A DNA stretch of 49,696 nucleotides from Alphaproteobacteria bacterium (GTDB taxonomy: Bacteria > Pseudomonadota > Alphaproteobacteria > Elsterales > Elsteraceae): assembly GCA_004292755.1 (NCBI GenBank), contig RDXE01000048.1, forward strand, positions 1-49,696, read 5' to 3'. Of the stretch, positions 8,734 to 36,453 are shown in pieces (the first letter of the stretch is position 1; each line of letters starts with the position of its first letter). The position numbers and the translations under genes were made by a program. Below the pieces are notes generated by a model that worked only from the letters and a program-made list of their open reading frames with translations, did no database searches and was not told where the DNA came from.

Positions 8734-8824
8734 GCCCGGGCGCTGCCGGGCAACGACGGGCCACTGGTGTGCTGCTGGGCTCTGCCCAAGGCTGCGACCA
8801 ACAGTGGCTGCGGGAACAGGATCA

Positions 8825-9256
8825 ATGCCGACGCCGTCGCGCCTCGAACTTCTGTGCATTGAGCGCGGACTGAAAATGACCGACCAGCGTCGGGTGATTG
8901 CCCGCGTGCTGTCGGACGCGACCGACCACCCCGATGTGGAGGCCGTCTATCGCCGCGCCATTGAGATCGATCCCAAGATCAGCATCGCGACTGTGTACCG
9001 CACGGTTCGGCTGTTTGAGGAAGCAGAAATTCTGGAACGGCATGACTTTCGCGATGGCCGCTCCCGGTACGAGCAGTTGCGCGACGAACATCACGACCAT
9101 CTGATCGATTTGATCAGCGGCAAGGTGATTGAGTTCCATAATTCCGAGATTGAGGAGTTGCAGCGCCGCGTCGCAGAGGCTTTGGGCTATCGGCTGGTGG
9201 ATCACCGTCTGGAACTCTACGCTGTCCCCCTTGACCAAACGGATCCAAAAGCGTGA
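8825..9256 (+). CDS. fur: Fur-family transcriptional regulator (iron/manganese response)
   Basis: A 143-residue Fur-type regulator. The winged-helix DNA-binding domain (about residues 5-80) includes MTDQRRVIARVL and the recognition-helix stretch ISIATVYRTVRLFEEAGI-like. The dimerisation domain carries the metal-binding histidines in DEHHDHLIDL and ends LGYRLVDHRLELYAVPL. It lacks the CxxC zinc site of gammaproteobacterial Fur, as expected for the alphaproteobacterial branch, where some members sense Mn (Mur). The HxR signature of Irr is absent, so I call it Fur rather than Irr. ATG 8825 is chosen because it opens at the family start. The stop overlaps the olsB-like start as GTGA, so the regulator is translated together with lipid genes. 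Confidence 0.9.
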   Translation: MPTPSRLELLCIERGLKMTDQRRVIARVLSDATDHPDVEAVYRRAIEIDPKISIATVYRTVRLFEEAEILERHDFRDGRSRYEQLRDEHHDHLIDLISGKVIEFHNSEIEELQRRVAEALGYRLVDHRLELYAVPLDQTDPKA

Positions 9257-10089
9257 CCGAGCGGTTTGCCCCTGTTCCAGGTCTCGACGGCGAGTTGGTG
9301 TCCGGCGACTTGATCGTTCGTCTCGCCCGCACGGAAGACGAGGTTCTGGCCTCCCAACACCTGCGCTATCGCGTCTTCTACGAAGAGATGGCTGCCCGCC
9401 CTTCGGCGGAAATGGCAGCTACTCGACGTGATTTTGACGCCTATGACGGCGTGTGCGACCATTTGCTCGTGATTGACCAACGGCACGGCGATGGCCCTTC
9501 TGGGGTGGTTGGCACCTATCGGCTGATCAGGCGCAGCGCTGCTGACCAGTGCGGTGGATTTTACACCGCCGATGAGTACGACATTTCGGCTTTGAAATCA
9601 TACTCCGGCGAGGTGTTGGAGTTGGGGCGCTCCTGCGTGGACGACCAGCACCGCACCCGCCCAACCATGCAGATTCTCTGGCGCGGCATCGCCGCCTATG
9701 TGTTTCACCATCACATCGAGGTGATGTTTGGCTGCGCCAGCCTGCCGGGCACCGACCCCGCGGCGCTGGCTGAACCCCTGTCTTATCTGCATCACCACCA
9801 TTTGGCACCACCGGACCTGCGCCCACGCGCGCTTGAGGCACGCTACAGCCGGATGGACTTAATGGCGGTCGACCAAATCTCGGCCAAAGCCGCATTCAAC
9901 AGCCTGCCGCCGTTGATCAAGGGCTATCTGCGCCTGGGGGGATTTGTTGGCGATGGTGCCGTGATTGACCATCAGTTCAACACCACCGACGTGTGCGTGA
10001 TTGTGAAGACTGATCTGGTCACCTCCAAATACTACTCCCACTACAGCCGCACTGCCCGCGATGGCTCTGGCGAGGAGGCGGGGGCCTGA
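9253..10089 (+). CDS. olsB: OlsB-like ornithine N-alpha-acyltransferase (GNAT fold)
   Basis: A 278-residue GNAT-type acyltransferase of the hemolysin-like/OlsB family. OlsB joins 3-hydroxyacyl-ACP to ornithine, making lyso-ornithine lipid, the first step of ornithine lipid synthesis at the inner membrane. Family marks are LRYRVFYEEM (residues 37-46), a DYDGVCDHL-like stretch at residues 61-71 and LELGRSCV (122-129). It is followed two bases later by a PlsC-type acyltransferase, the classic olsB-olsA order, which strengthens the assignment. The GTG start at 9253 overlaps the fur stop. Part of the GNAT/hemolysin family makes other lipids, so the amino-acid substrate is inferred. Confidence 0.85.
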   Translation: MTERFAPVPGLDGELVSGDLIVRLARTEDEVLASQHLRYRVFYEEMAARPSAEMAATRRDFDAYDGVCDHLLVIDQRHGDGPSGVVGTYRLIRRSAADQCGGFYTADEYDISALKSYSGEVLELGRSCVDDQHRTRPTMQILWRGIAAYVFHHHIEVMFGCASLPGTDPAALAEPLSYLHHHHLAPPDLRPRALEARYSRMDLMAVDQISAKAAFNSLPPLIKGYLRLGGFVGDGAVIDHQFNTTDVCVIVKTDLVTSKYYSHYSRTARDGSGEEAGA

Positions 10090-35493: not shown

Positions 35494-35523
35494 AGGCACA
35501 GGGGATGGATCACGCCTGTGCCT
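35494..35523. terminator. Second hairpin at the dps 3' end
   Basis: AGGCACAGG (35494-35502) pairs with CCTGTGCCT (35515-35523). It reaches into the dps stop codon, so it may serve the minus-strand transcript or back up the first hairpin. Confidence 0.45.
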
Positions 35524-35962
35524 ATGCCAGGATGGCGCCCAGCATCCAGGCGGCCTTTTCATGCTCCTGCACCCGCTCGGTCGCCATGTCTTCGCTACCG
35601 GGGTCACCCGCCGCATCGGCTGCGGCAATCACCTCGTAAGCCACCTTGGCAACTGCCAAGTGGTCATCGCGCAGAGCACGCACCATTGCCATTTGGTCCA
35701 CCACGGCGCCATCGGCTGTGACAACGGAAAGTTCACCCAGTTGCGCCAGACCGGCGGGTGCATCGGCGCCAAGCGCGCGCAACCGCTCCGCCAGCCCATC
35801 CGCAGCCTCGTAAAGGCCGTCATACTGCTCCTCAAACAAGCTGTGCAGCTGAGGGAACAGGGAGCCCCGGACGTTCCAGTGATAGCCGTGGGTTTTCAGC
35901 GCCAGCACATAGGTGCTGGCCATCAAGCGGGACAAGGTGTCAGTCACGGGGACGGTTGACAT
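35522..35962 (-). CDS. dps: Dps-family DNA-protecting ferritin-like protein
   Basis: A 146-residue member of the Dps family, a dodecamer that stores iron and consumes hydrogen peroxide in the cytoplasm. Ferroxidase residues are in KTHGYHWNVRG (His) and EEQYDGLYEAAD (Asp/Glu), and the length fits. ATG 35962 is chosen because GGAGGCTGCA precedes it. Upstream there is a promoter and a near-consensus Irr operator, so repression under low iron is likely. A longer frame to 36022 covers this promoter and was rejected. Confidence 0.94.
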   Translation of the reverse strand: MSTVPVTDTLSRLMASTYVLALKTHGYHWNVRGSLFPQLHSLFEEQYDGLYEAADGLAERLRALGADAPAGLAQLGELSVVTADGAVVDQMAMVRALRDDHLAVAKVAYEVIAAADAAGDPGSEDMATERVQEHEKAAWMLGAILA

Positions 35963-35987
35963 TGCAGCCTCCAGCAGTGCGTCATTG

Positions 35988-36004
35988 TTTAGAATAATTC
36001 CAAT
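35988..36004 (-). promoter_or_regulatory. Likely Irr-type (ICE) operator in front of dps
   Basis: TTTAGAATAATTCCAAT matches the iron control element TTTAGAA-N3-TTCTAAA at 12 of 14 fixed bases. It overlaps the -10 region and start of the dps promoter (minus strand TTGCCA at 36029-36024, 16-base spacer, TATATT at 36007-36002). Irr proteins repress iron-storage genes by such sites when iron is low. The ICE consensus is from memory, so this is a well-founded prediction, not a proof. Confidence 0.55.
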
Positions 36005-36096
36005 ATAGCCAGAACCGGCCAATTGGCAAGGGGGATATGACGACCCTTGACGATTTTTCCATACTCGCCTGATGGTTTTGTTAGCCGGAGGTACCC

Positions 36097-36453
36097 ATGC
36101 CGACTGACCCTGATCCCACCCTACCAGCCCAATGGGGCACTGGCACTGCCCCCACCCTCAACGCCCTGCGCACTGAAATCGACCGCGTCGACGCCGCCCT
36201 GGTGACCTTGCTGGCCGAGCGCGCGCGCTACACCCGGGACGCGGCCCGCTTCAAAGCCAGCCTCGCCGAAGTGTCCGCCCCCGCCCGCGTGGATCAGGTG
36301 CTGGACCGGGTGCGCAGCCGGGCAGTCGCAGCGGGCCTTCCACTCCCCATTGCGGAGGCGGTGTGGCGCGCCTTGATCACGGCCTCAATCGAAGATCAAC
36401 GCGCCTGGTACCTCGCCCATGCCCCGGCGCCAGGGGAACGCGACCAGGGCTAA
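36097..36453 (+). CDS. Chorismate mutase, AroQ type
   Basis: A 118-residue all-helical chorismate mutase, which turns chorismate into prephenate for Phe/Tyr synthesis. Typical are LRTEIDRVDAALVTLLAERA at the N-terminus with the first active-site Arg, KAS in the middle helix, and VWRALITASIEDQRAWY at the end. The N-terminus (residues 1-20) is Pro-rich. Located alone, not fused to other aromatic-synthesis enzymes. The next gene starts 73 bases later in the same direction. Confidence 0.88.
   Translation: MPTDPDPTLPAQWGTGTAPTLNALRTEIDRVDAALVTLLAERARYTRDAARFKASLAEVSAPARVDQVLDRVRSRAVAAGLPLPIAEAVWRALITASIEDQRAWYLAHAPAPGERDQG

Follow-up and report, generated by a model that had tools for sequence, protein, structure and literature searches.

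The dps locus and its promoter

The window analysed here is the whole stretch of DNA, 49,696 nt in length, and its dps gene lies on the minus strand behind a promoter-like pair of boxes that is overlapped by a palindrome of the ICE/Irr-box type. The features that bear on the argument are the following:

35522-35962, minus strand: dps, 146 aa, ATG start (Pfam Ferritin, 97.5 bits)
35968-35972, minus strand: GGAGG, likely ribosome binding site of dps (direct reading of the sequence)
35988-36004, no strand assigned: ICE/Irr-box palindrome TTTAGAATAATTCCAAT, 12 of 14 fixed bases (consensus match, and kept in relatives)
35995, minus strand: predicted dps transcription start, within the ICE (from the promoter match, unmapped)
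36002-36007, minus strand: TATATT, −10 box of the dps promoter (consensus match only)
36024-36029, minus strand: TTGCCA, −35 box of the dps promoter (consensus match only)
36097-36453, plus strand: chorismate mutase-like gene, divergent from dps (profile search; rejected as ICE target)
8804-9256, plus strand: Fur-family gene, Fur/Mur-like (profile search; context only)

Dps proteins store iron, which they oxidize, and protect DNA, and their genes are commonly treated as targets of control by peroxide and starvation. The product of the window gene scored over the cut-off of the Pfam ferritin model (PF00210, 97.5 bits) and matched three NCBIfam Dps equivalogs, each under its curated cut-off, which indicates a member of the Dps family rather than of those named subgroups. 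It is 73% identical to the product of a same-genus relative (G008).

The palindrome TTTAGAATAATTCCAAT differs at two positions from the ICE consensus, which we take to read TTTAGAANNNTTCTAAA; both mismatches are located in the half touching the −10 box, with which the ICE has three bases in common. A promoter scan of 35900-36120 returned TTGCCA-16-TATATT, with 10 of 12 consensus matches (shuffle mean, 0.2), as the sole promoter-like pair, on the minus strand and directed toward dps. Read along that strand, the order is TTGCCA, 16 bp, TATATT, ICE, GGAGG and the dps ATG at 35962, and the centre of the ICE lies at about −1 relative to the predicted start. An earlier note on this DNA had described a 12 of 14 match to the ICE in the dps start region, accompanied by TATATT and TTGCCA boxes. 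Both observations held: the match, at 35988-36004, overlies the −10 box and the predicted start, and the two boxes form a promoter-like pair (10/12) with a 16-bp spacer. The ICE or Irr-box, and its name, are described in passages of PMC7762939 and PMC3413700.

Irr and the distribution of the palindrome

Within the entire window the ICE at 35988-36004 was the only match at three or fewer mismatches. Shuffled windows held a mean of 0.13 matches at this level, with at least one match in 13 of 100 shuffles. A first-order Markov model built on the dinucleotides of the window and a genome size of 4.21 Mb gave an expectation of 0.4 sites per genome at two or fewer mismatches and 10.8 at three or fewer, against 4 and 13 sites, respectively, in a genome-wide scan; thus, only the stricter level is informative. 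Sites weaker than this are indistinguishable from noise by sequence alone, and a site as good as the dps ICE is unusual. The four genomic sites with two or fewer mismatches comprise the dps site, one in the intergenic region between irr and a rubrerythrin gene, and two ICE-like sequences inside open reading frames (C65:22037-22053 and C85:3595-3611, 2 mismatches each), which are probably due to chance. No recognizable iron genes were found near the nine 3-mismatch sites, as judged from the start of the neighbouring protein sequences. The two-mismatch threshold misses real-looking sites, as G008 has 11 of 14 fixed bases both at dps and at rubrerythrin.

Conservation was followed in nine genomes of the family, three without a dps match and one with a remote match only. 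All five family genomes with dps (the window's own, G008, G002, G003 and G004) carry an ICE directly before the gene, with 11 or 12 of the 14 fixed bases matched (only 11 in G008), at the same position and between flanks that diverge. G003, which is the same as an Elstera litoralis record over 3,408 identical bases, belongs to the same family as the window genome. Among 80 named dps loci, mostly of the Caulobacterales, only L029, L030 and L031 reached 11/14; they duplicate G008, G004 and G003 and are counted once in the family five. A chance resemblance of an A+T-rich promoter to the ICE could draw on the 13 of 100 shuffled windows with a match and on the location of two of the four best genomic sites inside reading frames, but recurrence at one place in five family genomes with diverged flanks, and the class-wide association of the ICE with irr described below, make this explanation very improbable.

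The same family comparison bears on the gene that diverges from dps. This chorismate mutase-like gene begins 93 bp from the ICE and has a weak match to isochorismate lyase (59.1 bits, cut-off 126). Isochorismate lyase is an enzyme of some siderophore pathways. The proximity of the gene and its weak match would both suit an ICE that serves this neighbour and not dps. The gene adjoins dps in G008. It was not found next to dps in the Elstera-genus loci, although the ICE is kept there, and hence the palindrome goes with dps. Given also that the only promoter-like pair at the site faces dps, we rejected the divergent gene as the ICE target, and the probability that it is the true one appears to be minute.

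The genome holds three Fur-family genes. The earlier note had tied its reading of the site to the presence of irr, and irr was found at C1:45206-45625, unlinked to dps, with 211.5 bits against the IrrA model NF045678 (cut-off 150) and 188.8 against the Irr model (cut-off 170). The translation of 139 aa contains the HHH (HXH) haem motif and zero cysteines, and the cysteine-containing haem regulatory motif of the Bradyrhizobium-type Irr is absent from it. By the account in passages of the review PMC7762939, an Irr with the former motif and no cysteine would be likelier to lose DNA binding with haem, as in Rhizobium leguminosarum, than to undergo the cysteine-dependent degradation of Bradyrhizobium.

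The second family member is the Fur-type gene that the earlier note had correctly reported in the window. Its product is nearer to Fur than to Irr (Fur model, 101.8 bits, cut-off 146; IrrA, 37.5 bits, cut-off 150) and was rejected as an Irr. An OlsB-like gene (9253-10089), which matches L-ornithine N(alpha)-acyltransferase (OlsB) profiles slightly under their cut-offs, begins at the end of this fur gene, as if co-transcribed. The third gene, on contig C48, is nearest to Zur and scores under the cut-off of the Zur model. As Fur-family operators look alike, and Fur-like and Zur-like proteins are encoded beside Irr, the true ligand of the palindrome could be another member of the family, either the Fur/Mur-like protein of the window or a peroxide sensor.

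A class-wide comparison bears on this alternative. The sample contained 289 alphaproteobacterial genomes, 154 of them with an Irr over the cut-off and 113 with dps at E<=1e-15, and yielded 120 dps upstream stretches (119 of 122 dps places, the window's own being excluded, plus G008). G008 was kept apart, as were four cases with intermediate Irr scores (ICE of 14/14 in one, 11 in two and 8 in one). An ICE of at least 12/14 preceded dps in 25 of 78 cases in irr-bearing genomes versus 0 of 37 in irr-less genomes (Fisher 1.8e-5), the irr-less set including 21 upstreams from genomes with weak, below-cut-off Irr matches, like other Fur-family proteins. Counted per family, the figures were 17 of 44 and 0 of 28 (Fisher 9e-5). 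At a threshold of at least 11 the ICE was present in 36/78 and 4/37 dps upstreams, respectively, and the reversed motif reached at least 12 in 0/78 and 1/37. The irr-less upstreams are higher in A+T than the irr-bearing ones, so that chance matches should go up there, not down. The association is common but not general, as 53 of the 78 irr-bearing dps upstreams have no ICE of at least 12/14. Since the palindrome tracks irr, with none of the 37 irr-less upstreams at 12/14 or more, we consider a different Fur-family ligand to be quite improbable.

Some of the Irr matches over the cut-off contain internal in-frame stops, with one TAG each in G071, G073, G190, G285 and G293, and a TGA and a TAA in G043. 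These may be pseudogenes, sequence errors or frame effects.

The irr–rubrerythrin module and two positions of the ICE

The only other intergenic site in the genome with a score equal to that at dps (12/14) lies at C1:45756-45772, between irr and the downstream rubrerythrin gene (C1:45889-46308; Pfam Rubrerythrin, 106.5 bits). This irr–rubrerythrin stretch (C1:45206-46308, or L017:4207-5309) is outside the window, and its ICE is placed 4 bp before a TTGACA box. The arrangement is widespread: rubrerythrin follows irr within the examined stretch at 35 of 41 irr loci (own locus included), and at 25 of these 35 it is preceded by an ICE of at least 11 (reversed motif, 2/35). Of 29 loci with an ICE of at least 10, 20 have precisely 3 bp between the ICE and TTGA[CT], and in four no TTGA[CT] was found near the ICE. 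Within the family, an ICE of 11–14 precedes rubrerythrin in G008, G001, G005 and G006. In three Elstera-genus genomes (L331, L332 and L333) the irr–rubrerythrin ICE is absent (best 8/14) while the dps ICE is kept, and rubrerythrin was not found in the irr stretch of G007.

At the dps genes of other alphaproteobacteria the ICE has a second slot that immediately precedes the −35 box, some 50 bp ahead of the start. Positions were compared at 41 loci with an ICE of at least 11 and an irr gene or an intermediate Irr score, using relocated ICEs (200 trials) as the control. In 10 of these loci the ICE centre lay at −3 to +1 relative to the best predicted start (2.06 expected, maximum of 7 in 200 trials) and in nine at −53 to −46 (1.05 expected, maximum of 4), whereas 21 loci fell into neither narrow class and one had no promoter. 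Looser layout labels, given to 51 Dps proteins at an ICE of at least 10, placed 25 over the start region, 14 upstream and four as unclear, with eight lacking an ICE; near ties (G190, G208, G060 and G222) are resolved toward the upstream label, and several overlapping labels are based on weak promoters (G008, G011 and G074). The overlapping layout came from 16 families and the upstream layout from 10, with one family in both.

On a tree of the 51 Dps proteins the two labels are interspersed and require seven changes, but the tree is a quick and weakly supported one with 18 open forks and several long branches, and its strongly supported branches force only three changes (the upstream group versus all other groups). 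Position 1 of the ICE is a T in 5 of 25 overlapping versus 10 of 14 upstream loci (Fisher 0.002), with the reservation that these bases themselves contributed to the assignment of the layouts. The rarity of this T in the overlapping layout would be consistent with a trade-off between the demands of the −10 box and those of the operator.

These two positions raise the question of the sign of control. Passages of PMC7762939 state that Irr represses or activates according to the location of the ICE, and PMC2864753, in the passages available, records a 1.57-fold rise of rubrerythrin RNA in iron-starved, Irr-encoding Pelagibacter, whose rubrerythrin promoter lies outside this analysis. An ICE in the upstream slot, some 50 bp before the dps start, could mean activation. 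We put forward, tentatively and with more doubt than confidence, that the effect of Irr on dps is reversed between some alphaproteobacteria and others, and that Irr drives the dps and rubrerythrin genes of one genome oppositely. The ICE would then have shifted repeatedly between two places, the start point, where it is an operator, and a position some 50 bp farther upstream, just ahead of the −35 box. A start-point ICE would turn dps off at low iron and an upstream ICE would turn it on, and the same Irr would provide rubrerythrin (upstream slot, beside irr) at low iron and Dps (operator slot) at high iron. If the position of the ICE sets the sign, the control of dps has flipped repeatedly. As the evidence on the upstream layout is mixed, with R. 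sphaeroides ccpA (below) pointing the other way, repression of dps is likely here, and a flip of sign is a testable idea only.

Proposed control of dps and comparison with known systems

Irr very probably binds the palindrome at the dps start, an ordinary type of control in these bacteria. We think it probable that the site acts as an operator through which Irr silences dps when iron or haem is scarce and from which haem releases it. With iron or haem low, Irr would cover both the −10 box and the start point and block access of RNA polymerase to dps; when haem is plentiful, Irr would leave the DNA and dps would be made, so that the supply of the iron-oxidizing Dps would coincide with an abundance of free iron. 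The overlap of the ICE with the −10 box and +1 fits repression, and repression by Irr at low iron or haem is the best reading of the locus, with repression itself being likely. From the site, its overlap with the promoter, the irr gene, conservation and co-occurrence, all of which are observed, we infer the binding of Irr, its sign and its response to haem at dps. The proposal of the earlier note, that dps is likely to be controlled by iron via Irr, thus gains support from an irr gene in the genome, conservation in the family and co-occurrence with irr across the class.

Irr might also bind here while a stress sigma factor or peroxide mainly governs dps and iron has a minor part. The EcfG-type promoter motif GGAAC-N16-18-CGTT was not found in the 361 bases upstream of the window dps, and a promoter of this type was rejected there; among irr-bearing dps upstreams the motif was present in 1 of the 36 with an ICE of at least 11 and in 5 of the 42 without. 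In favour of other signals, Brucella dps depends on RpoE1 (PMC12279742), H2O2 leads to degradation of Irr in Bradyrhizobium (passages of PMC4902296), and oxidants lower the amount of Irr in Dinoroseobacter shibae (PMC8007024). On balance, we regard a minor role for iron at this dps as unlikely.

Control of dps by Irr, as preferred here, would provide a likely Irr operator for this gene both in a lineage that has received little study and across 17 of the sampled alphaproteobacterial families. The two ICE slots, together with the module of irr, ICE, 3 bp, TTGAC and rubrerythrin, offer clean material for testing what makes Irr repress one gene and activate another, and whether moving one 17-bp site by about 50 bp can reverse the sign of control in the course of evolution. 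Among the titles and abstract openings listed in a literature search, none reported direct Irr binding to dps.

The nearest parallel for the gene itself is Brucella abortus, in which dps declines while Irr increases in iron-poor host macrophages, according to passages of PMC5587712. Here, as in that species, dps would be tied to Irr under iron limitation; those passages give no direct binding of Irr to dps, and 'dps' is absent from the main text of a Brucella Irr DAP-seq study (PMC10374146). The nearest parallel for the layout is the repression by Irr of mbfA and bfr in Bradyrhizobium japonicum (passages of PMC4902296) and of mbfA in Rhodobacter sphaeroides, where the start was mapped inside the Irr-box, although in the latter Irr binds mbfA yet has no major role in its iron response (passages of PMC3413700). 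As in these systems, the ICE lies over the start of a ferritin-like iron-handling gene; unlike them, the predicted target here is dps. At R. sphaeroides ccpA the Irr-box precedes the start by about 40 nt, and loss of irr leaves expression under iron limitation somewhat raised rather than lowered (passages of PMC3413700). The ccpA layout is like that of rubrerythrin and of those dps genes whose ICE occupies the upstream slot, and differs from the overlapping ICE at the dps gene of the window.
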